From a virus, in IMG/VR virus record IMGVR_UViG_3300028025_003432, positions 1 to 32,732 of that record: a stretch of 32,732 nt of DNA. One strand, 5' to 3'. Below the pieces are notes generated by a model. The model was given only the letters and a program-made list of their open reading frames with translations. It did no database searches and was not told the origin of the DNA. The translations under genes were made by a program, and so were the position numbers. Shown here piece after piece: positions 4,763 through 18,505 of the stretch. Numbering within the stretch: the stretch's first letter is position 1; each line of letters opens with the position of its first letter.

Positions 4763-5011
4763 TTAAATCCTAGCTAAAGTGTGTAGAATATCCAAGAAAC
4801 CCCACACGAAACAAAATACTAATATACTTAGGAGAATTGTTGCAAAGAACAATTCCACTCCATTAAAATCCCACCACTCTCTTACTTGCTTGTTGCGTGG
4901 TAGACTCCGTCCCAGTTGCTTGGCTTGCCTTGCTTGAGTCTTTCCAGCATTAGTTCGTAGTACTGCTTTAGAGGGTTCGTAGTCGAATCCCCATCCATTA
5001 GTTCCTGACAT
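4763..5011 (-). CDS. Single-span small membrane protein, start uncertain
   Basis: From ATG 5011 the protein is 82 residues: a basic, polar N-terminal half (GKTQARQAKQLGRSLPRNK) and one strong membrane segment (about 55-73, FFATILLSILVFCFVWGFL). This start overlaps the adenylate cyclase gene by 130 bases in another frame. The cyclase C-terminus is family-typical and surely real. Translation could instead begin at a GTG just after the cyclase stop (in GVELFF), giving little more than the membrane segment. The segment itself and the tight fit to the next gene support a product. Confidence 0.55.
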   Translation of the reverse strand: MSGTNGWGFDYEPSKAVLRTNAGKTQARQAKQLGRSLPRNKQVREWWDFNGVELFFATILLSILVFCFVWGFLDILHTLARI

Positions 5012-6909
5012 AGTTTTATCGCTTTCTTCCAATCGCCAGAATAATATGCGTCAAGATACTGCTGATGTTTTTCACCAACTTTTGCGATTGCGTAAATGTG
5101 AAGTCCAATTGTTTTACCTTTTACTGCGATACAATCAAGCTGTGCCACATCATAAACATGTTTCACTCGCTCTGCTGTTTCTGGACCAATTACCAACAGA
5201 ACTCCATAACCTTTTGTTTGTCCCTCAAGACGTGCTGCAGTTGATACTGAATCACCGAGTACGTCATAACCATAGCGATCGTTTGCACCGATGTTACCAA
5301 TCAGAGTTGGACCAGTATTTACACCAGCACCCATACCTACAGGTGGACGACCTTCTGCTTGTAATTCTTTATTAAACTCCTCAATTGCATCAATCATTTC
5401 AAGAGCAGTCTTAACTGCAGTAATTGCGTGTTCATTATCATCAACAGGTGCGTTGTGAACGTGTAGTGAAGCATCACCAATAAACTTGATAATACAACCA
5501 CCATTCTTCAACACTGGCTTAGACAATGCGTCCATATAACGATTCATAACTGCAGTCAAACCTTGCACGTCAGCACCGAATGATTCACCAAGTGTAGTGA
5601 AACCACGAAGGTCTGTCATAACGATAGAGAGATCTTTCTTCTCTCCTTTTAGTCGCTCTGCTGCACCTTCAGGATCTTCTGCCAATTGATTAACGATGAT
5701 TGGAGATACGTATCCACCAAACTGTTTTTTAATTTGCTGTTTTGCACGCAACTCGACAAGGAACTTGACAATGTATCCATGGAAGCTGGCAATGAATATG
5801 GTAAGAATTGGGAATACAGCATCGAGTAAATACCCAGATCCAGTAAACAGTTGGAAGCCACCATAATAGGCGATTGCTCCCAAAGCGAGCGCAAAGATGT
5901 ATCCATGAGTGTACCTTGTTAGAAAGATTGATAGGATTACTGCCACTATCATAAATGCTAACTCAGCAATCAATGCCCAATCTGGACGACTGATGTTAGT
6001 GCCACTTGTTACTGTATCTAATACTGCAGCTTGTAAGTAATGCGGATAAACCGATCCCGTTGCAGTAGCCACTGGATTGTTGAGTCCTTTTGCAGTAAGT
6101 CCAACGATGACGATGGCTCCACCAAAGTCGGCTGGTAGTTTTGCTGCAGAATATTCTTTTGGTTTTGCTGACCAATCAACCCAAATTCTACCCAACTCGT
6201 CTGTGTCGATTTTTCCGAACTGTGGAATTCGAACTGCTTCGATTCCTGATTCATTGACCTTGACTTGGAAACTAGGATCTCCTGCAGCGACACGCAATGT
6301 CTCCAAACTGATGCTTGGGTACAATTGTCCTTTAGAATTGACGACCATTGGAATTCTTCTGGTGACGCCATCGATTTCTGGGAGGGTGTTAACAACACCA
6401 ATACCAGCAGCACTATTATTAAACTTTTTAATATTAGGTTGAATATTTCCATAGATGACTCCTGTACTCGCTGGATCGCCACCTACTACAGAAACACCTG
6501 GACGAAACGGTAAATGCTTATCTGAAAAATAACTATCACTTGTTGCTACCTGTGGAAGAACAACAGGTGCTTGTTTCATTAATGATGCTAGTTGATCATC
6601 TTGACCAAAACGATCAGACTCAGGCATATAGACGTTAAAGACAACCAGCCCAGCACCATGAGAATAGAGATTAGTAATGAGTTCGGCATACTGTCCACGA
6701 GGGAACGGGAACTGTCCTTTTTGTTGAATATAGGCATCGTCAATATTTACAACTGCAATCTGCTGAGATGTAGTTGCACCTTTACTTGTTATGAGTTGAT
6801 CGAAATAACGAAGTCTGACAGACTCTACAAATGCAGGATCTGCTACTCGAATAGCTAGTAGGAGGACTAGTGTTACTAGAGCCATCCATGGAGATAATAG
6901 TTTTTTCAT
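4882..6909 (-). CDS. CHASE2-domain class III adenylate cyclase
   Basis: A 675-residue membrane enzyme predicted to make cAMP from ATP. It has an N-terminal anchor (7-22), an extracytoplasmic CHASE2 sensor (about 25-305, with VVNIDDAYIQQKGQFPFPR), three membrane helices (about 315-381), then a class III cyclase domain (about 425-610). The metal ligands are Asp433 in MTDLRGFT and Asp479 in KFIGDAS. The adenine-selecting pair is Lys475 and Asp549 (YDVLGDSV), and Arg560 is present. The transition-state Asn position is Ser556 (VSTAAR), so activity may be reduced or the catalytic detail altered. The tail (YYELMLERLKQG...WDGVYHATSK) is typical of bacterial CHASE2 cyclases. I chose ATG 6909 because it forms an ATGA with the PA14-curlin stop and precedes the signal anchor (MKKLLSPWMALVTLVLLL). 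The cyclase is the enzymatic end of the curli-like operon. Confidence 0.93.
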   Translation of the reverse strand: MKKLLSPWMALVTLVLLLAIRVADPAFVESVRLRYFDQLITSKGATTSQQIAVVNIDDAYIQQKGQFPFPRGQYAELITNLYSHGAGLVVFNVYMPESDRFGQDDQLASLMKQAPVVLPQVATSDSYFSDKHLPFRPGVSVVGGDPASTGVIYGNIQPNIKKFNNSAAGIGVVNTLPEIDGVTRRIPMVVNSKGQLYPSISLETLRVAAGDPSFQVKVNESGIEAVRIPQFGKIDTDELGRIWVDWSAKPKEYSAAKLPADFGGAIVIVGLTAKGLNNPVATATGSVYPHYLQAAVLDTVTSGTNISRPDWALIAELAFMIVAVILSIFLTRYTHGYIFALALGAIAYYGGFQLFTGSGYLLDAVFPILTIFIASFHGYIVKFLVELRAKQQIKKQFGGYVSPIIVNQLAEDPEGAAERLKGEKKDLSIVMTDLRGFTTLGESFGADVQGLTAVMNRYMDALSKPVLKNGGCIIKFIGDASLHVHNAPVDDNEHAITAVKTALEMIDAIEEFNKELQAEGRPPVGMGAGVNTGPTLIGNIGANDRYGYDVLGDSVSTAARLEGQTKGYGVLLVIGPETAERVKHVYDVAQLDCIAVKGKTIGLHIYAIAKVGEKHQQYLDAYYSGDWKKAIKLCQELMDGDSTTNPLKQYYELMLERLKQGKPSNWDGVYHATSK

Positions 6910-8090
6910 TGTTGTGTCATCGTCACAGAACACCCACCTGCGTTTGCACAAGATTGCTGCAGCAAGTATGTCTGATTAGTATTCCCTTGTTGTAAAACAT
7001 TAACAGTCGAAGAGCCACCACTATTAGTCACTTCAATTCTAGCAGAATGAGCACCAGCATCTTTTTGGTCTAAGGAAACTGTGTGCCCATTTCCTGTGGC
7101 TTTTATATCCGAATATTTAGTTCCTGTTCCAACTTGATTGTTTGTAATATTATTAGTATTACCATTAATTATGATAAAACTGGTTTTCTCTGCATCGCCT
7201 GTCTGCGATACATTTACTGTATTTGTATTACCTGTCACATCAACAGAACTATAATGTCCTGGAGTTGACGCTGTGCCTGAATTAGATTGATACACATTGG
7301 TTATATTAGAACTGCCATTTATATTAATGTTAGAGTAGTTCTTCCAACCCAACTGGTCTAGCCCAATTGAATTACTATCACCCTGTATTGTTATGTCAGT
7401 TAAATGATATGTTCCTGACTGTAAAACATCTACTGTATTATATGAACCAACTTGATTCACATAAATTTGATTGGCAATAGTTTGTCTATTTCTTGCAGCA
7501 GTTTTGTTTGTTTGTTGTAGTGTTGTTATACCAACTTGAATCGCTGGTTGCCAGTATGTTGAAACAGTTGCTAAGGATGTCGTCGGAATTATTTCCCACG
7601 TATTGTTTTGAACCCACTGTAGATTTACCATGGCACCACCACCATTTTCATAGTATATTAGTTCTATTGGTACTGTTCCTGCAGGTAATGATACACTACC
7701 AGATCTAAAAGCACCACCACTTTCAATCCAGCTATCAACTACCTGAGTATTATTAACTTTGATTCGTATACCATCATCAGCCTGTCCACCAAAACTATAT
7801 GTGCCAGCTGTTGGTATGTTAATAAATCCATAAAATCTTACAATAACACCCTCTGCTCTTCCAGAATTTAAAACTGCTCCACCACCCCATCCAAAGTTTA
7901 CAGTACTGACTATTCCTGAACTTAACTTTGTACGATTGTTAATAGTTCCATCTGCAGCTTGAGTGTAGGTAGGCATCGCTCCACCTGCAGCATACGTGTC
8001 ATACAACAATCCATTAGTTTGAGCATCTATATCCTGACTGTTAGCAGAAAAGTAGATAAACGCAGAAAGTAAAATTAAAAACTTTTTCAT
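6906..8090 (-). CDS. Secreted PA14-domain protein with C-terminal curlin repeats
   Basis: A 394-residue protein with a Sec signal peptide (MKKFLILLSAFIYFSANS). It has a PA14-like carbohydrate-binding beta-barrel at about 25-170, including VRFYGFINIPTAGTYSFGG, the ADDGIRIKVNN core and LPAGTVPIELIYYENGGGA. About 200 residues of curlin-type repeats follow, with N-x-[IV]-x-[IV]-x-Q units such as YNTVDVLQSG, TNTVNVSQTG and GGSSTVNVLQQGN. A Cys pair (C-x5-C) lies close to the C-terminus. It could be an adhesive or glycan-binding amyloid subunit or nucleator. Both ends are ATGA overlaps, with FecR upstream and the cyclase downstream. PA14 was assigned by pattern; the curlin repeats are clear. Confidence 0.85.
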   Translation of the reverse strand: MKKFLILLSAFIYFSANSQDIDAQTNGLLYDTYAAGGAMPTYTQAADGTINNRTKLSSGIVSTVNFGWGGGAVLNSGRAEGVIVRFYGFINIPTAGTYSFGGQADDGIRIKVNNTQVVDSWIESGGAFRSGSVSLPAGTVPIELIYYENGGGAMVNLQWVQNNTWEIIPTTSLATVSTYWQPAIQVGITTLQQTNKTAARNRQTIANQIYVNQVGSYNTVDVLQSGTYHLTDITIQGDSNSIGLDQLGWKNYSNININGSSNITNVYQSNSGTASTPGHYSSVDVTGNTNTVNVSQTGDAEKTSFIIINGNTNNITNNQVGTGTKYSDIKATGNGHTVSLDQKDAGAHSARIEVTNSGGSSTVNVLQQGNTNQTYLLQQSCANAGGCSVTMTQQ

Positions 8091-9169
8091 TTTTGTATCA
8101 ACGTAATTGTAGTGCTACCACCCTTGTTAATATTTTGTATGTATGTTGCACCTTGTTGAGTATACACAATTGTTTTATCCTCTGTAACCGATGCTCTTAC
8201 GCAAGCAGTGCTAGATGCAGAGAATTTACATACGTTTACCATTGTTTGATCATCATTAAAGAAATAGTATGCACCAACAGATGCTTTAAAATCTGGCAAC
8301 AGACGACTCTCTGCTGACAGAGAATCTTTACTCAAATTGTCTGCATCAGCATCCAACATGTTAAACAGAAAGTTAATGTCAAGTAAATTAATATCTAACT
8401 CTTTAAAGTTCTCTAACTTATTTTCGTCCAAGTCTTTAAATGCCAATAAGTCTACATTTAAAAAGTTCTTATCTAAAAGACTTTTAGATTCACGCATCTC
8501 TATTTCTTTGATTTCTTTTGGAGGAGATACAATAAGAAGATTGTCGATATTTGCTTGGTCTATACTTACAATAACTGGAGCAGTTGGTGCTGTAGTTAAA
8601 GAAGCCACCACCGTAGTTTGATATGGTTCATTCATGAATACTTCTCCTGCATCGTTTTTAACTGAAATGGCTCCAGTAACGCAGGACTTTTTCTTTTCAT
8701 CGCAAGACGGTAACAGCATAATTAAACTGCGACCCAATTCATCAACAGTCATAGAAAAGTCAGTACCCCTAACTGCCACTGTAGCAGTAGGGGTATTAAC
8801 GGCAACTTGTTGTGGATTAGTTTTTGCGATTTGACCACTTGCGTAACGAGCAGTGCCCATTACAACTTTCATAGCGAGTTTTCCTGAACCTTTCTTCGGA
8901 TCATACACGAAGTCATCTACCACTAGCTTACTCTGCTCTGTGATATTGACTGTCGTGTTATCCTCGAAAGTTAGTTTGGCTTTCGCCTTTGCAGTAACAA
9001 TTGTATCATTCATTTCTACTCCAGAGCCAACTTTGGATGGAATAGAATTTTTATTACGTACTATTTCTGTTGGACCAGTCTGTTCTGTGACTTTGCCAAC
9101 TGCAGCAAAATTAGTTTGACTGAGTGATAGAAATAGTATTGCTGTTACCAGACGAATTAATATTAACAT
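8087..9169 (-). CDS. Secreted FecR-domain protein of the curli-like operon
   Basis: A 360-residue protein with a Sec signal peptide (residues 1-23, cleaved near NFAA). The FecR domain spans about 25-190. Its signature is VAVNTPTATVAVRGTDFSM, preceded by FEDNTTVNITEQSKLVVDDF. It has no membrane span and no sigma-regulator N-domain, so it is unlikely to be a classical FecR anti-sigma protein; it resembles the stand-alone periplasmic FecR proteins that sit next to CHASE2 cyclases in bacteria (from memory). The middle (about 205-290) is a Leu/Asp/Lys-rich helical segment. The last 20 residues (YIQNINKGGSTTITLIQ) look like one curlin strand pair. Cys pairs C-x6-C and C-x8-C suggest disulfides. The start overlaps the curlin gene by 59 bases. 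Confidence 0.88.
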   Translation of the reverse strand: MLILIRLVTAILFLSLSQTNFAAVGKVTEQTGPTEIVRNKNSIPSKVGSGVEMNDTIVTAKAKAKLTFEDNTTVNITEQSKLVVDDFVYDPKKGSGKLAMKVVMGTARYASGQIAKTNPQQVAVNTPTATVAVRGTDFSMTVDELGRSLIMLLPSCDEKKKSCVTGAISVKNDAGEVFMNEPYQTTVVASLTTAPTAPVIVSIDQANIDNLLIVSPPKEIKEIEMRESKSLLDKNFLNVDLLAFKDLDENKLENFKELDINLLDINFLFNMLDADADNLSKDSLSAESRLLPDFKASVGAYYFFNDDQTMVNVCKFSASSTACVRASVTEDKTIVYTQQGATYIQNINKGGSTTITLIQK

Positions 9170-9707
9170 TTTGTACAGTCATTCCAGATTGTGTCACACC
9201 AACTGTATTTGTATTACCAGTAATAGTAGCATTCATGGTAGTAGTTCCAGTTGCAGTACTTGTATGAGTCACGTTATTAGTATCTCCAGTCACAGTAATG
9301 TTACTAGTGTGGTTAGCACCAGAACCTAAGTTTTGAGTAATAGTATTATCGTCACCAGTAATAGTTTGCGTAATAGTAGATCCTGAGCATCCTGCAGAAA
9401 CAGTAGTTCCACAATCGATAGTTTGTATGTTACCACTACCTGTTGTAAGAATTGTAGTGTCAGCGGATGAACCATTCACGACCATTGCTAAGATGTTATT
9501 GTCTCCAATTTGGTCAATTGCCACAGTGTTAGAACCACTGCCAATATAAATCGAATCGGTGTTATTACCGATAGTGTTACCCACACCTTGTTGTGTGATA
9601 GTAACAGTAGAACTAGAACCAACTTGTTCTATATAAATGTCATTAGCATAACCAAAAGAACTAACACCAAGCAAGCTAATCATAGCGACTGCTTTTAGTC
9701 CTTTCAT
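9111..9707 (-). CDS. Curlin-repeat (CsgA/CsgB-like) amyloid subunit
   Basis: A 198-residue secreted protein with a signal peptide (MKGLKAVAMISLLGVSSFGYA). The rest consists of curlin-like repeats with Asn/Gln ladder residues: IYIEQVGSSSTVTITQQGVGN, GSNTVAIDQIGDNN, ITQTITGDDNTITQNLG, ITGNTNTVGVTQSG and a terminal NSNTISITQSN. Repeats are more irregular and Thr-richer than E. coli CsgA, and a C-x7-C pair interrupts them. It is the likely main or minor fibre subunit for the CsgG/CsgF pore encoded upstream. Its ribosome site (AAGGAC) and TAATATG junction with csgG indicate tight coupling. Confidence 0.9.
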   Translation of the reverse strand: MKGLKAVAMISLLGVSSFGYANDIYIEQVGSSSTVTITQQGVGNTIGNNTDSIYIGSGSNTVAIDQIGDNNILAMVVNGSSADTTILTTGSGNIQTIDCGTTVSAGCSGSTITQTITGDDNTITQNLGSGANHTSNITVTGDTNNVTHTSTATGTTTMNATITGNTNTVGVTQSGMTVQNVNINSSGNSNTISITQSN

Positions 9708-9708
9708 A

Positions 9709-10500
9709 TTATTGTCCTTTTTGTTTAGATTTAAATTTCCATAATCCTTTTCGCTCGCCCTCTATAATCATCTCATAGACAGCCTGTTCAATAGCTACAC
9801 GAACAGCGTATGTTGTCGGTTCATTGATACCTTGCCCAGTTTCTAATTCTAGGGCTTTTGTTCCAGCATCAATAAATCTAAACACACCGATATTAGAAAC
9901 ACTACTGTAAATAGTTTTACTTACCGCAGTGCTCAACAAAACCTCTCCGCTACTCACACTTACTAAGCGTAGAGATATAACAACTTCATCGACACGATAT
10001 TGCTCGCTTCCACCAATTCCTAAAAATCTTGCACCATTACCACCTGAACGCACATTAGAGTCATAACCGATAATACCACCATCAATCATGATACCTGCAA
10101 CAGTCATTGGTTTTAATGGTGTCGCACCCTTACCTTCATAAACTTCTCGTTGATTACGAATCAATTGTCTTTCTTTTATTAAGTTGTCAAGTCCAACTCG
10201 TTCAACAACTTTAAACCATCCAGTGCTATCTTTTAGTGCTTTAATTAAAAATACTTCAGAACCTTGTGTCACTGCTTTACTGAACAAAGCCATTTTATCA
10301 CTTGGTTTGTTTTGTCCAGTTTTATCTTGAAATCCATAAACTGCCACTGTCATTGGTGGACCATCTAGTTCTGGTAATTTTTCTATTAGACTTTTCTTTG
10401 GTTCAAGTTTAACTGGTTCTTGATCACCAAATGCCTGCATATTGACAGAGGCACATCCAGTTAGTGCTAGTGCAATCAGAGATATTAGTATCGTTTTCAT
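9709..10500 (-). CDS. csgG: CsgG-like curli secretion channel lipoprotein
   Basis: A 263-residue outer-membrane lipoprotein. The lipobox LALTGC places the lipidated Cys at 16. Family signatures run the length of the protein: MTVAVYGFQDKTGQNKPS; ALKDSTGWFKVVERVGLDNL; IKERQLIRNQRE; GIMIDGGIIGYDSNVRSGG; ARFLGIGGSEQYRVDEV; SLRLVSVSSGEVL; GVFRFIDAG; and a final RKGLWKFK. E. coli CsgG forms a nonameric pore that exports curli subunits. Around the constriction loop the Phe is kept (ALFSKAV), but the Tyr51 and Asn55 equivalents seem replaced and the loop is one residue longer. The C-terminal tail is about 20 residues shorter. I chose ATG 10500 (TAATATG after the csgF stop) because it gives a clean lipoprotein signal. 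Confidence 0.95.
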   Translation of the reverse strand: MKTILISLIALALTGCASVNMQAFGDQEPVKLEPKKSLIEKLPELDGPPMTVAVYGFQDKTGQNKPSDKMALFSKAVTQGSEVFLIKALKDSTGWFKVVERVGLDNLIKERQLIRNQREVYEGKGATPLKPMTVAGIMIDGGIIGYDSNVRSGGNGARFLGIGGSEQYRVDEVVISLRLVSVSSGEVLLSTAVSKTIYSSVSNIGVFRFIDAGTKALELETGQGINEPTTYAVRVAIEQAVYEMIIEGERKGLWKFKSKQKGQ

Positions 10501-10501
10501 A

Positions 10502-10969
10502 TTAGAAACTAAATGTGGCGATTGGCACAACGACCTGTGTAACAGTCCCTTGTGTATCTCTAATTGTTAATTGAACTTGTGTGGCAGAACCATTGTCGTA
10601 TAGTTTTTCCCAAGTGATAGAAGATCCTTGGAAATCCACAGTGCCAGTGTTTGAGCTACCATCTGAAAACATCTGGTCAGCTAACTGTTTTGAAAGTTGC
10701 GCATAGATTCTTGACTCTAGATTGTTCAAGAATTTGGCAATATTTGTGTTGTTCTTAGCTCTTGCTGCTGCATCTTCTGCAGCTTTGGCTTCGTCTTTAA
10801 GTTTTTGTTTTCTTGATGATTCTAACTGCTCGATAGTTAGAACGTGTGCTGAGTATCCCTGTCCACTGAAAGCAGGGGAGTTGAATTGGTGTACGAGTTC
10901 TCCTGCATTACTGTTTAAACTGACTATCAGCAGACCCAGGAGGGATTTTCTTAAGTGATGCCTTGACAT
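10502..10969 (-). CDS. csgF: CsgF-like curli assembly factor
   Basis: A 155-residue secreted protein. The signal peptide ends near SNA, and the mature N-terminus (GELVHQFNSPAFSGQGYS) matches the CsgF segment that plugs into the CsgG pore (E. coli F-R-N-P-N-F-G-G-N). An Ala/Lys-rich helix (about 48-75) and a C-terminal beta part with WEKLYDNG and VQLTIRDTQGTVTQVVVP agree with the family. In E. coli CsgF couples export to fibre nucleation at the cell surface. The start lies 62 bases inside the upstream gene, but the signal peptide requires it. It directly precedes csgG. Confidence 0.9.
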   Translation of the reverse strand: MSRHHLRKSLLGLLIVSLNSNAGELVHQFNSPAFSGQGYSAHVLTIEQLESSRKQKLKDEAKAAEDAAARAKNNTNIAKFLNNLESRIYAQLSKQLADQMFSDGSSNTGTVDFQGSSITWEKLYDNGSATQVQLTIRDTQGTVTQVVVPIATFSF

Positions 10970-11243
10970 CTTCTATTCCGTTCGTTTTGTTATCGTCGGT
11001 GGGCTGTTGCCCATCTTTTTCTCTTAATGACAAGATAACATTCACTTTCTGATTCAAACGGATAAGATCGTTATCCAACATCCTAATGCGATCGATTAGA
11101 TCAATCAGAACTTTACTAGCTTCACCTGTTACTGGCTTAATTTCTGTGGTTACCCACTGCCAGACATAATAAACAAAGTAACCCAAACCACCTGCTGCAA
11201 TTATCGGGAAACCATACTTATTGACTAACTCAACGACATCCAT
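10908..11243 (-). CDS. Small membrane protein, paralogue of the 11412-11690 product
   Basis: A 111-residue protein starting at ATG 11243, preceded by GAGAGTGAAA. One membrane segment (VNKYGFPIIAAGGLGYFVYYVW, about 6-27) is followed by an amphipathic coiled region (DRIRMLDNDLIRLNQKVNVIL) and a polar tail. It is clearly related to the protein encoded at 11412-11690: both share GFPI-AA---GYFV and D-R-----DxxRxxxKV---L. The pattern is compatible with small holin-like or virion-assembly membrane proteins of marine phages, but the function is unknown. Its 3' end overlaps csgF by 62 bases. Confidence 0.7.
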   Translation of the reverse strand: MDVVELVNKYGFPIIAAGGLGYFVYYVWQWVTTEIKPVTGEASKVLIDLIDRIRMLDNDLIRLNQKVNVILSLREKDGQQPTDDNKTNGIEDVKASLKKIPPGSADSQFKQ

Positions 11244-11412
11244 TTTCACTCTCGCTCTTTTGTATCTTTTGAAAGACGATTCTTCCATCAAATGTCACAT
11301 TAGCAACATAACGATCGCCATCTTTAAGATGTAGTTTATCAGCTGTTAATTCTTTGTCCATCATAATAGTACCATTTTCTAGCACATCAAAGACATAATC
11401 TACAAATAACAT
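11230..11412 (-). CDS. Small soluble phage protein, 60 aa
   Basis: A 60-residue beta-rich protein (MLFVDYVFDVLENGTIMMD, then KLHLKDGDRYVANVTFDGRI). The ATG at 11412 forms TGATG with the previous stop; a TTG one codon earlier is less likely. The KDGDRY-V segment suggests an SH3/OB-like barrel, but I recognise no family. It sits between two paralogous membrane protein genes. Confidence 0.65.
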   Translation of the reverse strand: MLFVDYVFDVLENGTIMMDKELTADKLHLKDGDRYVANVTFDGRIVFQKIQKSESENGCR

Positions 11413-11690
11413 CAATCTCTCCTTGCGTCACTTTGCTCTGCTCGAGCAATCCTGTCTAAATCTGGGGGTATACCCAGTGCGTGAGATACCTTAGTATCAA
11501 TTCGAATAACATCGTGGTTCATTGCTGCAACTCGTTTATCGAGAGCCATAATGATTCCCTTGATAGAGTTTACAGAACCTGTTACTCCAGCAAGGATGAA
11601 TTTAAGTGTAAGGAATACAAAGTAACCTGCAGCCATTGCTGCAGCGATTGGGAATCCGAGTTCCGCTACGATTTTTAAAAAGTCTACCAT
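11412..11690 (-). CDS. Small membrane protein with amphipathic tail
   Basis: A 92-residue protein with one long hydrophobic stretch (about 8-35, ELGFPIAAAMAAGYFVFLTLKF). Then comes an amphipathic helix (IIMALDKRVAAMNHDVIRID) and a charged tail. It is a paralogue of the 10908-11243 product. Such pairs are found in marine T4-like phages; I cannot give a role. It is the first gene after a 53-base gap that holds a late-promoter-like CCTAAATA. Confidence 0.75.
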   Translation of the reverse strand: MVDFLKIVAELGFPIAAAMAAGYFVFLTLKFILAGVTGSVNSIKGIIMALDKRVAAMNHDVIRIDTKVSHALGIPPDLDRIARAEQSDARRD

Positions 11691-13383: not shown

Positions 13384-13529
13384 TCTTCTTCATCAAGATC
13401 TTCCTCTTCGTAGATGTCAGCAGAACAAACTGGGCAATATACCAAATCGGCTGTTGAATGGTCATCTCCTTTGAGAACGATCTTTCCTCGTGCTCCACAT
13501 GATTCACATTCAAAGTATTTAGTTGTCAT
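13380..13529 (-). CDS. Small zinc-ribbon protein, 49 aa
   Basis: A 49-residue protein with two Cys pairs, C-E-S-C at 8-11 and C-P-V-C at 32-35, a classic zinc ribbon, and a strongly acidic tail (EEEDLDEEE). It overlaps the desaturase gene upstream by 11 bases and the GIY-YIG gene downstream by ATGA. Small zinc ribbons like this are common between metabolic genes of T4-like phages. Binding to nucleic acid or RNA polymerase is possible but not shown. Confidence 0.8.
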   Translation of the reverse strand: MTTKYFECESCGARGKIVLKGDDHSTADLVYCPVCSADIYEEEDLDEEE

Positions 13530-14229
13530 TTTTTACCTTTGCTAATTCTAATTTTTCTAATACTTTAAACCACATCCATCCAATATCAAACTCAAACCAA
13601 CGTCTACTTAATTTAGGGTTTGCTGGTTCAGCGTGATGATTGTTGTGTAGTTCTTCACCGCCAATAATAATTCCAAATATTGATATGTTTTTAGAACGAT
13701 CCTTAGTGTTTGTGTTACGATAACCCCACCAATGACCAATACCATTAACAATACCTGCTGCCCAAAAAGGGATCCAAATCATTTGAATACCCCAAAGAAG
13801 CAGACCGATCCAGCCAAACACAATTACATTGATGGCTAACATAATCATGATACCTGTTCTACTATGTTTAGAGTAAACATTATTTTCTAGCCAATCATCT
13901 GGAGTTCCAACTCCATATTGATCAACCATTGCTTTATTTTTGCTGGCTTCGTTATACAATAATGCACCGCCAAAGACAACTCTCCAAATACCATAAACAT
14001 GAGGAGAGTGGGGATCTCCTTCTTTCTCACACATTTGATGATGTTTACGATGTATAGCAACCCACTGTTTAGTCACCATTCCAGTAGTGAGCCACAACCA
14101 AAAACGCATGAAGTGTGCAACTGCTGGATGAAACACCAATCCTCTATGTGTCTGTCCTCTATGAAGATAGAGAGTGACACACACGATTGTGATGTGCGTC
14201 ATTATTAAAACGTAGATAAGTTCAATCAT
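13519..14229 (-). CDS. Membrane fatty acid desaturase (acyl-CoA delta-9 type)
   Basis: A 236-residue integral membrane di-iron enzyme. The three histidine boxes are complete: HRGQTH (23-28), HRKHH (60-64) and HNNHH (195-199). Extra ligand-like His occur in GDPHSPH (74-77) and GIGHWWG. Four hydrophobic segments surround the boxes. The family introduces a double bond into membrane fatty acyl chains. In a phage it could tune host membrane fluidity during infection or lysis. The length is shorter than eukaryotic enzymes and normal for bacterial and phage forms. It overlaps the upstream gene by 8 bases. Confidence 0.93.
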   Translation of the reverse strand: MIELIYVLIMTHITIVCVTLYLHRGQTHRGLVFHPAVAHFMRFWLWLTTGMVTKQWVAIHRKHHQMCEKEGDPHSPHVYGIWRVVFGGALLYNEASKNKAMVDQYGVGTPDDWLENNVYSKHSRTGIMIMLAINVIVFGWIGLLLWGIQMIWIPFWAAGIVNGIGHWWGYRNTNTKDRSKNISIFGIIIGGEELHNNHHAEPANPKLSRRWFEFDIGWMWFKVLEKLELAKVKNDN

Positions 14230-14860
14230 CTTTTCTTTCGTACATTATTGTGTTAGTGTCACCAAGAGACCACTTGGGATCTGTTTCAACTGACCACTTT
14301 TTAGTTGCTACTTTAAAGTCAGGCATCTTTAATTCTTTAGGATTGCTACTTGGTTCTAAAATAATGAGACGATTATTAGGCTGAGCAGCAAACTGCCCAT
14401 TATCACACTGAATAAAATTATAAGACTTATGGTCTTCGATATCTTCAGAAAAGCCTGTATCAAGAGTGTTAAAATCAGGGTGGGCACTATCAACTGTAAA
14501 AAGATATACTCCATACATCCACTCTCCGTTTTTAAGTTTAAACTTACAACGCATTGATTGAAGTTGTGCCTTCTTAATCACAGTAATATCATAGGATAGA
14601 CAATCCCATAACTGAAGGTAATCTAGTGGTAGTGGCTCACCTTCAATTGGTTTCCAACAATATGCATGGAGTGGTAGTTTATCATACAAAGCACCATAAT
14701 TATTTAAGTATGACTCAATACGGAATGCTTGTCCACGTAAAGACTTAATACTTATCCACCAACATGGCTCGAGTTCTCCATGACCTTTTTCAAAATCATA
14801 GAGAAACTCTTTGCGAACAAAACATTTAACAGGTGGAAGGTTCGCAACAATATGTGCCAT
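14222..14860 (-). CDS. Phage hypothetical protein, 212 aa
   Basis: A 212-residue soluble protein starting at ATG 14860 (TAATG with the aldolase stop). Features are MAHIVANLPPVKCFVRKEFLYDF at the start, WWISIKSLRGQAFRIESYLNN, and a Trp/Tyr-rich middle. It has no signal or membrane segment. I recall similar proteins beside desaturase genes in marine T4-like phages but know of no function. The constant pairing with metabolic genes suggests an enzyme or regulator of the same pathway, which is inference. Confidence 0.72.
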   Translation of the reverse strand: MAHIVANLPPVKCFVRKEFLYDFEKGHGELEPCWWISIKSLRGQAFRIESYLNNYGALYDKLPLHAYCWKPIEGEPLPLDYLQLWDCLSYDITVIKKAQLQSMRCKFKLKNGEWMYGVYLFTVDSAHPDFNTLDTGFSEDIEDHKSYNFIQCDNGQFAAQPNNRLIILEPSSNPKELKMPDFKVATKKWSVETDPKWSLGDTNTIMYERKDD

Positions 14861-15525
14861 TAATATTTTCCTGATGAAAGAACGATATGACAAATATGTT
14901 CTAGTCGTTCAATATGTTCAAATGCTCGCCAAGGACTAGTATCAATAGCGACTACACCATGTCCTTTAATACCTACGATGTCAAAGCCAGTATTACCTTG
15001 TTCATCAAGATTTAGTTTTTCAAAACATTGGTCAGCAAGTTCTTGACTAATTGGAGGAACATCACCAACATTAGGTGCTACGCTAGTATAACGACTTAGT
15101 TCTGGAAAATCATTGGCAAGACTACTCAACTCAATTCCACGATGCATTGCAGCAACACAGTATGTTGGGTGAAAGTGCATAACTACTCTCACTTCATTAC
15201 TATGCTGTCCCATCATCTTTTGTAAACCAAAGTGTAATGGAATCTCGCCACTTGGTTTTAGATTAGCACTAATGTCAGTATACTGTCCTTCTTTCCAACC
15301 CCATCGTTCTGCCAACAAACCTGTGCCAAGTTCGTTCCATGATAGTGGTGGTTTGATTATGATCTTTTTAAATTGATCAGGTTGTAGTGTTTGTTTACGT
15401 ACACCACTTGGAGTAATATAAAAATGGTCACGATCGTGGTGACGAATAGAGACATTACCATCACGACTGGTAATCCAGTTGCGACGATATGCCTCTACCA
15501 TTGTATCACATATTGTTTCTAACAT
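14860..15525 (-). CDS. Class II aldolase/adducin-family protein
   Basis: A 221-residue metal-dependent aldolase-type fold. The zinc site is visible: HFH at 117-119, a third His in GHG (189), and the catalytic Glu94 in PSGEIPLH. The N-terminal RDGNVSIRHHD and ITPSG segments match the family's phosphate-binding region. Relatives include fuculose-1-phosphate aldolase, ribulose-5-phosphate 4-epimerase and methylthioribulose-1-phosphate dehydratase (MtnB); the substrate cannot be read off here. It starts within the nrdB stop (TAATG). Phage copies could redirect sugar phosphates during infection. Confidence 0.88.
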   Translation of the reverse strand: MLETICDTMVEAYRRNWITSRDGNVSIRHHDRDHFYITPSGVRKQTLQPDQFKKIIIKPPLSWNELGTGLLAERWGWKEGQYTDISANLKPSGEIPLHFGLQKMMGQHSNEVRVVMHFHPTYCVAAMHRGIELSSLANDFPELSRYTSVAPNVGDVPPISQELADQCFEKLNLDEQGNTGFDIVGIKGHGVVAIDTSPWRAFEHIERLEHICHIVLSSGKY

Positions 15526-16705: not shown

Positions 16706-18505
16706 TTATCCTTCGCAGGCTAAGCAGGTATCTGCATCACCAGTTAGTGCATGAAGATCGATTTCTTTAATAACTTCTCGCTCGATACGTTTTGATACTT
16801 TATCAGCTTTGGCAATCTTATCTGAACGACAGTAATACATCGTTTTCAATCCTTGCTTCCATGCTTGGAAGTGGACAGCGTGAATGTATTTAATGTGACT
16901 GTCTGGTCTGAAGAATACGTTAAGAGATTGTGCTTGGTCAATATACTCTTGACGATCTGCTGCGTGTTGAACAACCCAACGCTGATCAATTTCCATTGAC
17001 GTCTTGAATACGTCTTTTGTCCAATCATCCATCCACTCAAGATGTTGAACAGATCCATCATTGGCAATGATGCTTGACCATACTTCATCAGCCCATCCTT
17101 CTTTATGATTCTCTGCTTCTTTCTGAATCACAATATCCAAGAAACGATTCTTGTTTAGGTGAGAACCCGAAAGAGTATCCTGCCTATAAGCATTGGCACG
17201 ATAAGGTTCAATAGAAGGACTAGTGTTGCCCATAAGAATGGAAGAAGAAGCATTGGGAGCAATAGCCATAAGATGACTAAAGCGATTCCCAGTACCCACC
17301 GCATCAGGTGCTTCACCTCGTTCCAATCCAAGTTCTTTATTCGCTGCATCTAACTTTCCTCTTATGTGTGCGAAGATTTGTTTGTTACGTCCAATTGACA
17401 TTGGTGATTCCCATGGCAAGCTATTCTTTTGCAAGTAGGCATGCCAACCCAAAGCACCGATGCCGATACTTCTTTCTCGCATAGCGGAGTATTTTGCTCT
17501 CTTGATGGTGGAAGGTGCATTATCAATAAAATACTGAAGCACATTGTCAAGCATTTCTGCTACATCACGAAGGAAAGTAGGATGCGACTTCCAGTCATCG
17601 TAGTACTCTAAGTTTAGAGAAGACAAGCAGCATACTGCTGTTCGCTTTTCATTTGTTGGTAGAATAATCTCAGAACAGAGATTAGATTGATGAACCTTCA
17701 AACCTTTATCTTTTAACCATTGTGGTAGTTTACGATTTGATTCATCGATGAAGTGGAGGTATGGTTCACCAGTCATCATACGCATCTCAAGGATACGTTG
17801 CCATAATTCTTTTGCTGATACAGTTTCACGAATTTCGTTTGATGCTGGGTCAACTAGATTCCATGAGTCATCTGCTTCTGGATCAATCATACAATTTTCA
17901 ATCAACTGCATAAACGCATCAGGAATATTAATACCATGATGCATGTTTAGAGTACGCATGTTTTGGTCGCCTGTCGGCTTGCGCATCTCTAAAAAGTTAA
18001 TAATGTCGGGATGACTGATATCAAGATAAGCAGCATAACTTCCACGACGAGTACGACCTTGGCGATAAGCAAGACTCGAAGCATCGTACATTTTGAGGTG
18101 TGGCATAACACCAGTGCTCTTGTCGTCTGCCGAACGTATACCGAACCCAATACCAACACCACCCCCGAGCATAGAAAGCCAATTAGTTTCAGAAAGGTTA
18201 TCAACTAGTCCCTCCGCTGTGTCTTCAATGTAGTTAAGAAAGCACGAAATAGGTAATCCTCTTTTACTTCTGCCGAATGATAGAATAGGTGTTGAGTAAG
18301 AGAGCCAGTGCTTGCTGGAATACTCATAAAGTCTTTGTGCGTGTTCTGGATTGCTACCAAATTTGCTGCTAACGAATGCGAATCTTTCTTGCGGTGACGT
18401 TTCTTCATCTTTCATGTAACTTTCTTTTAATCTTATCTTACCTAATTCATCGAACAAATTGTCTCGAGAATAATCAACCTCTATGCCATGCACAATGTCT
18501 GCCAT
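16706..18505 (-). CDS. nrdA: Ribonucleotide reductase class I alpha subunit, short form
   Basis: A 599-residue catalytic subunit reducing NDPs. Active-site residues are present: Cys88 (LPISCFLN), the N275-x-C277-x-E279 triad in SNLCSE, Cys292 (AVCCLSS), the radical-transfer pair Tyr557-Tyr558 (MYYCRS), and a C-terminal redox pair CLAC (594-597). It is about 150 residues shorter than E. coli or T4 NrdA. The protein begins close to the catalytic barrel without an N-terminal ATP cone, so dATP feedback inhibition is probably absent, which would favour runaway dNTP synthesis in the infected cell. It is followed by the 62-aa gene and nrdB. Confidence 0.95.
   Translation of the reverse strand: MADIVHGIEVDYSRDNLFDELGKIRLKESYMKDEETSPQERFAFVSSKFGSNPEHAQRLYEYSSKHWLSYSTPILSFGRSKRGLPISCFLNYIEDTAEGLVDNLSETNWLSMLGGGVGIGFGIRSADDKSTGVMPHLKMYDASSLAYRQGRTRRGSYAAYLDISHPDIINFLEMRKPTGDQNMRTLNMHHGINIPDAFMQLIENCMIDPEADDSWNLVDPASNEIRETVSAKELWQRILEMRMMTGEPYLHFIDESNRKLPQWLKDKGLKVHQSNLCSEIILPTNEKRTAVCCLSSLNLEYYDDWKSHPTFLRDVAEMLDNVLQYFIDNAPSTIKRAKYSAMRERSIGIGALGWHAYLQKNSLPWESPMSIGRNKQIFAHIRGKLDAANKELGLERGEAPDAVGTGNRFSHLMAIAPNASSSILMGNTSPSIEPYRANAYRQDTLSGSHLNKNRFLDIVIQKEAENHKEGWADEVWSSIIANDGSVQHLEWMDDWTKDVFKTSMEIDQRWVVQHAADRQEYIDQAQSLNVFFRPDSHIKYIHAVHFQAWKQGLKTMYYCRSDKIAKADKVSKRIEREVIKEIDLHALTGDADTCLACEG

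Follow-up and report, generated by a model that had tools for sequence, protein, structure and literature searches.

Six genes in the window (the whole stretch of DNA analyzed here, a virus fragment of 32,732 bases) are best explained as an adhesive curli system that the phage encodes together with a FecR-CHASE2 sensor of fibre secretion or loading, a reading to which we assign a probability of about one half. The evidence points to adhesion with built-in sensing as a better fit than iron control.

Gene order and distribution of the module

The six genes occupy the minus strand from 10969 to 4882 in the order csgF, csgG, curlin, FecR-domain, PA14-curlin and CHASE2 class III cyclase. The sequence-only reading had placed one unit here, with a complete export-and-fibre core inside a phage genome, and this was borne out by profile searches. 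All six families scored above the Pfam cut-off, with matches for CsgF, CsgG, curlin repeat, FecR, PA14, CHASE2 and the cyclase domain, and neighboring genes abut or overlap throughout (with ATGA overlaps at the FecR/PA14-curlin and PA14-curlin/cyclase junctions). The csgF gene (10502..10969, minus strand) encodes 155 residues with a signal-like N-terminal segment (Pfam CsgF, 1.4e-16; phrog_35372, 4.9e-51); a phmmer comparison of this CsgF to the PDB gave no significant match. The csgG gene (9709..10500, minus strand), with its start corrected from TTG 10530 to ATG 10500, encodes a 263-residue outer-membrane curli pore with lipobox LTGC (Pfam CsgG, 1e-53; PDB CsgG, 1.1e-50) that aligns nearly end to end with CsgG of E. 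coli (E 1e-50). The first curlin (9111..9707, minus strand; 198 residues) has a signal-like segment followed by curlin repeats (Pfam Curlin_rpt, 5.7e-6) and sits between csgG and fecR, as it does in the compared loci. The window is found to hold a CsgG pore, CsgF and two curlin-repeat proteins with signal-like N-termini that predict secretion.

When compared to CsgBAC-CsgDEFG of E. coli, the phage module shares the CsgG pore, CsgF and curlin repeats, but adds FecR, a head domain and the cyclase. CsgE was found in none of 13 phage records, and the window is a fragment; as Zaragoza-Solas 2020 (PMC7029224) terms CsgE non-essential, a curli system is not excluded by its absence alone. Because CsgE was missing from these 13 records, phage curli may use another periplasmic partner or need none. 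The two phage curlins are only candidate counterparts of E. coli CsgA and CsgB.

Viral contigs were scanned by use of CsgG, which gave 16 loci, and of the cyclase, from which the best 80 of at least 589 confirmed stretches were examined. Among the loci from both scans that held csgF, csgG and fecR, cultured phages and the window included, the three genes were colinear in 68 of 68. Of 61 loci, 55 have the cyclase in the same orientation downstream of these genes and the other six have it inverted nearby; at four cyclase loci having more than 7 kb of upstream sequence, neither csgG nor fecR was within reach. Pelagibacter phage HTVC008M and Methylophilales phage Melnitz each carry these six genes in identical order. 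Gene product gp018 of HTVC008M is likewise a PA14-curlin; by contrast to the window, the second curlin of Melnitz has no recognized head. Joining of host genes to a phage contig by misassembly was ruled out and retains practically no probability, as the same operon occurs in cultured phages, 68 loci are colinear and GC content is uniform (39.2% for the module vs 38.9% for the rest of the window); no point in support of misassembly was found. Since csgF-csgG-fecR was colinear in every case and the cyclase followed on the same strand in most, chance is excluded as well.

The whole set, FecR and cyclase included, had been thought unreported, which proved incorrect. In Wittmers 2022 (PMC9599517), curli, FecR and adenylate cyclase are described together in podo- and myo-pelagiphages, and the type VIII secretion order given there (csgF-csgG-curlin-FecR-(curlin)-cyclase) is that of the module. 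The same six genes in the same order thus form the pelagiphage type VIII secretion module of myo- and podophages described in that paper and in PMC7029224. The latter reports csgF and csgG in pelagimyophages and raises the idea of 'sibling capture'; the former puts forward the ideas on aggregation and superinfection that the sequence-only reading also reached. The six-gene set is therefore already published. A text search of PMC9599517, PMC7029224 and PMC9004378 did not turn up PA14 or lectin heads on the second curlin, and no mention of a curlin-like FecR tail was found in the available text of the same papers, a silence that is not proof of priority. Judged by cyclase identity (36-40% to HTVC008M and Melnitz), the locus is rather distant from the modules of cultured phages.

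The description of the surrounding genome as T4-like held for part of the flanks, where the primase is nearest to that of Melnitz (49% identity) and RNR, ThyX and RNA ligase are present. No structural genes were identified among the scanned ORFs of the 32.7-kb fragment, the T4 late-promoter motif TATAAATA occurs 0 times in the window vs about 2 expected by chance, and searches of the window for tRNAs and against Rfam gave no match. The nearest relatives of the RNR large subunit (16706-18505) are not T4-like phages: the closest matches (60-62%) are to an Alcaligenes phage and to a record of a faecal phage, followed by pelagipodophages, a pattern that suggests gene transfer. A GC content of 39% and a primase just 49% identical to that of Melnitz do not settle the phage host. 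Genes for a fatty acid desaturase and a class II aldolase were also observed in the flank (13519-14229 and 14860-15525). Directly upstream of csgF are two small paralogues of phrog_18771 (10908-11291 and 11412-11690, minus strand; 127 and 92 residues), each with one apparent transmembrane segment followed by a charged stretch. Histidine kinases are placed upstream of csgF by Wittmers 2022 (PMC9599517); Pfam searches of these two genes gave no histidine-kinase match.

CsgF matches in 2 of 79 SAR11-family genomes were rejected as host loci, as the contigs (L207 and L208, from SAR11-family genome bins) resemble curli phages. Both carry the curli-FecR-cyclase module together with phage-like genes and are probably captured phages. 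CsgG is also matched at 44% by OR851715.1 (H16), a record of 1.5 kb that bears the name Salmonella phage S.Kent 1-2-1 and is possibly host DNA.

Second curlin and its exchangeable head

The second curlin (6906..8090, minus strand; model m97ec96f5d585) is a 394-residue protein with a PA14 head and curlin repeats (Pfam PA14, 9.7e-11; Curlin_rpt, 1.6e-7). Its curlin half (6909..7472, minus strand; residues 207-394) is predicted to fold into regular strands, with pLDDT mostly 85-94 and lower toward the C-terminus. Comparison of loci revealed that the gene in the fecR-cyclase slot conserves this curlin half and varies in its N-terminal half. Based on labels assigned by hand from sequence comparison and Pfam, the head was found to be PA14 in the window, in HTVC008M and in further phages, F5/8 type C in locus L020, and elsewhere one of at least three types with no clear Pfam family, and some versions were headless. 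Among the best 80 of at least 589 cyclase stretches, no locus with a full slot is closer to the window than L020 (cyclase 86% and FecR 77% identical). Residues 182-394 of the second curlin are 59% identical to those of L020, similarity between the PA14 and F5/8 type C heads is undetectable, and DNA similarity ends at about 8064 and returns at about 7124 in window coordinates. A second pair, L045 and L047, is 91% identical in FecR and 69% in the curlin halves, yet the heads differ. On a FecR tree the PA14 label changes at least seven times, or five when well-supported branches only are counted. Exchange is not free everywhere, because the 'no second curlin' and GFESGN labels cluster on this tree, where the second curlin is absent from 24 of the 60 rows.

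The PA14 head (7590..8009, minus strand; residues ~28-167) is supported by Foldseek, the head swap against L020 and motif position. Its model gave sugar-bound PA14 lectin structures of MpAFP as top Foldseek matches (7.8e-9). An Asp-Asp pair holds the sugar-binding Ca2+ of MpPA14, and sugar binding is Ca2+-dependent (PMC8092209); this pair was detected in all eight aligned PA14 heads and corresponds to Asp105-Asp106 of the window protein. With this predicted fold and Ca2+ site, the PA14 head is a probable sugar-binding domain. The head matches the sugar-binding PA14 domain of Marinomonas primoryensis MpAFP and other RTX adhesins; each of those is one giant protein that leaves the cell by type I secretion, whereas the phage head rides on a curlin.

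The slot is filled differently at a few loci. At L014:6978-7733 and L034:4096-4872 the curlin is replaced by a DNA/RNA non-specific endonuclease whose N-terminus is signal-like (Pfam, 1.6e-58 and 3.5e-55), and large slot proteins were observed with an autotransporter beta-domain (L052:5853-7892) or an F5/8 type C domain (L004:12110-15601).

Conservation of the module bears on a proposed lysis role. Buchholz 2022 (PMC9004378) proposed from AlphaFold models and synteny of Melnitz that a gated CsgG-CsgF pore depolarizes the cell and times release, which would make the other genes passengers; the lack of CsgE in the phage records is consistent with this proposal. In nearly all loci, however, the curlins, FecR and cyclase accompany the pore in conserved order, and heads are exchanged with the curlin half retained. 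The Melnitz annotation, moreover, contains two curlin-repeat proteins and FecR, contrary to the premise of an 'incomplete operon'. An outer-membrane pore alone also leaves the inner membrane unbreached. A pore for timing lysis is thus unlikely.

FecR protein, its curlin-like tail and the CHASE2 cyclase

The FecR-domain protein (8087..9169, minus strand; 360 residues) consists of a signal-like segment, a FecR/PupR-type fold (~25-212), a linker and a curlin-like tail (Pfam FecR, 6.4e-11). Its model, m1109f935cdf4, superimposes on the PupR CCSSD with Z 15.2 over 133 residues (rmsd 2.4). A second resemblance, to 5ix9, a cell-surface anchoring domain of RTX adhesins (MpAFP and others), has Z 6.9, a score in the middling range. 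The tail (8093..8272, minus strand; residues ~300-359) is predicted to form six strands spaced about 11 residues apart over the last 60 residues (pLDDT 83-89), and Gln359 is invariant across 45 FecR sequences down to 34% identity. By profile-profile comparison, the tail scored about 26 (26.4) against both curlins, compared to at most 17.7 for 40 column shuffles and 17.5 for the reversed profile. The Pfam curlin model did not match the tail in any of the 45 proteins, so the claim is based on the profile comparison, the invariant Gln and the spacing of the strands; the structural search reaches little of the tail, whose fold was not placed by structure. The match is modest (P 3e-4), and the case for a curlin-like tail is good but not overwhelming. 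The tail is retained in FecR of both L207 and L208. Among FecR matches listed for 385 alphaproteobacterial genomes, none extends into the tail, and the one that comes closest stops at position 295 of 366. SAR11 FecR relatives (L100-L105) were rejected as counterparts, as they represent a different FecR gene with no curli or cyclase nearby.

In Wittmers 2022 (PMC9599517), FecR is called an iron-dependent regulator, and one suggestion made there is that an open pore imports cofactors or siderophores while FecR regulates iron-related genes. The annotated FecR domain and the PupR/FecR fold, typical of FecR/PupR iron-signaling anti-sigma regulators, agree with this suggestion. The layout, however, is different: the signal-like segment leads directly into the FecR fold, with no cytoplasmic anti-sigma domain before a transmembrane helix and no Pfam anti-sigma match, and the protein appears instead to be a FecR/PupR-fold domain, predicted to be exported, with a curlin-like repeat at its conserved end. 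In addition, neither a sigma factor nor a TonB receptor was found among the scanned neighbor genes. We consider nutrient uptake or iron control very unlikely.

The cyclase (4882..6909, minus strand; start corrected from TTG 6951 to ATG 6909) is a 675-residue class III protein (Pfam CHASE2, 1.4e-40; Guanylate_cyc, 5.1e-18; phrog_35576, 8e-250) in which Pfam identified a CHASE2 extracytoplasmic sensor domain (5935..6873, minus strand) and a cyclase catalytic domain (5110..5640, minus strand). The latter retains both metal Asp residues, Lys, Asp and Arg, with Ser replacing Asn. Both metal Asp, the Lys and the Arg are invariant in 83 of 83 aligned phage cyclases. Ser occupies the Asn position in 35 of the 83, and the two remaining positions covary: Ser is paired with Asp, as in the window, and Asn with Thr. 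In class III cyclases, Lys together with Asp or Thr points to an ATP substrate, and the residues thus suggest ATP here. At ten loci, a separate ORF of 99-128 residues near csgF is similar to the last ~100 residues of the cyclase (e.g., L059:2389-2745, L079:16968-17333 and L066:16752-17105).

A FecR gene was found within ~4.5 kb of the CHASE2 cyclase in 19 of 37 alphaproteobacterial loci, hand-picked among better-scoring matches rather than at random, vs none in 400 kb of control sequence from the same genomes. A similar FecR-CHASE2 cluster has been reported in Campylobacterota (PMC9239204), and an outer-membrane protein of Sinorhizobium, NsrA, feeds the CHASE2 cyclases CyaD1, CyaD2 and CyaK (PMC13001267). 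This pairing supports the earlier suggestion that FecR and the cyclase have the appearance of periplasmic input and cAMP output; that suggestion had overlooked the curlin-like tail and the exchangeable head. Unlike the phage unit, the sampled bacterial pairs have no csgF or csgG beside them and their FecR has no curlin-like tail, and three alphaproteobacterial csgF loci had no FecR or cyclase nearby. The phage unit looks like two bacterial modules joined, for which the tail may be the link.

The same fibre could also be built with FecR as a non-signaling periplasmic anchor or nucleator, comparable to CsgB, to CsgE or to the module by which giant adhesins are retained, and with the cyclase serving a separate role such as host defence or energy state. 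This arrangement would fit the likeness to 5ix9, the fact that the listed bacterial FecR matches often lie inside huge reading frames (up to 6913 residues), the missing CsgE and the six inverted cyclases, which show that the cyclase is not always in the operon. The scarcity of cAMP readers in the SAR11 family, described below, is also in its favor. By contrast, bacterial FecR adjoins CHASE2 cyclases without curli, which argues for a direct link, and the 5ix9 score is just middling. We regard a silent anchor as doubtful, though with a real chance of being correct.

The target of the cAMP is a separate matter. A cNMP-binding domain was found in none of 20 phage records and was absent from 6 of 6 SAR11 genomes and from 75 of 79 SAR11-family genomes, many of which are likely incomplete. 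As SAR11 genomes nearly always lack this domain, an E. coli-style cAMP-CRP route is unlikely in SAR11, and the proposal that the cyclase alters host metabolism through cAMP is doubtful for the family to which the HTVC008M host belongs.

A proposed adhesive fibre with its own sensor

In the adhesive system with built-in sensing that we favor, CsgG and CsgF would form a pore in the outer membrane of the infected cell and export the two curlins, which would assemble into a fibre. The second curlin would display its carbohydrate-binding head, PA14 in the window, such that the fibre sticks to sugars on neighboring cells or particles, and the head is exchanged among related phages as expected if the target varies. 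Exported FecR would contact the cyclase at its CHASE2 sensor through the FecR/PupR-type domain, and curlin subunits or the fibre base through the tail, and fibre secretion or loading would be reported as cAMP. The phage may benefit by holding sibling cells together or by blocking competitors. Counting against this reading, Melnitz-infected OM43 cells showed no clumping (PMC9004378) and the Melnitz second curlin has no recognized head; the modest match of the FecR tail, the lack of a known cAMP reader in most SAR11-family genomes and the missing second curlin in 24 of 60 tree rows also count against it. More tentatively, the module may be a lectin-tipped amyloid whose head is swapped like the tip of a tail fibre, with a FecR-CHASE2 pair turned into a fibre monitor by an added curlin repeat and with cAMP made in SAR11 that has no recognized receptor.

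With at least 589 confirmed stretches in viral contigs from the cyclase scan alone, the module is widespread, and proposals for its purpose range over capture of siblings, defence against superinfection, uptake and lysis. The exchange of heads, of which one is probably sugar-binding, provides a concrete reason to favor adhesion. The scarcity of cNMP-binding proteins in the SAR11 family turns the target of the cyclase into a question of its own, and the curlin-like tail suggests that the bacterial FecR-CHASE2 pair, which occurs without curli, may report on surface structures.
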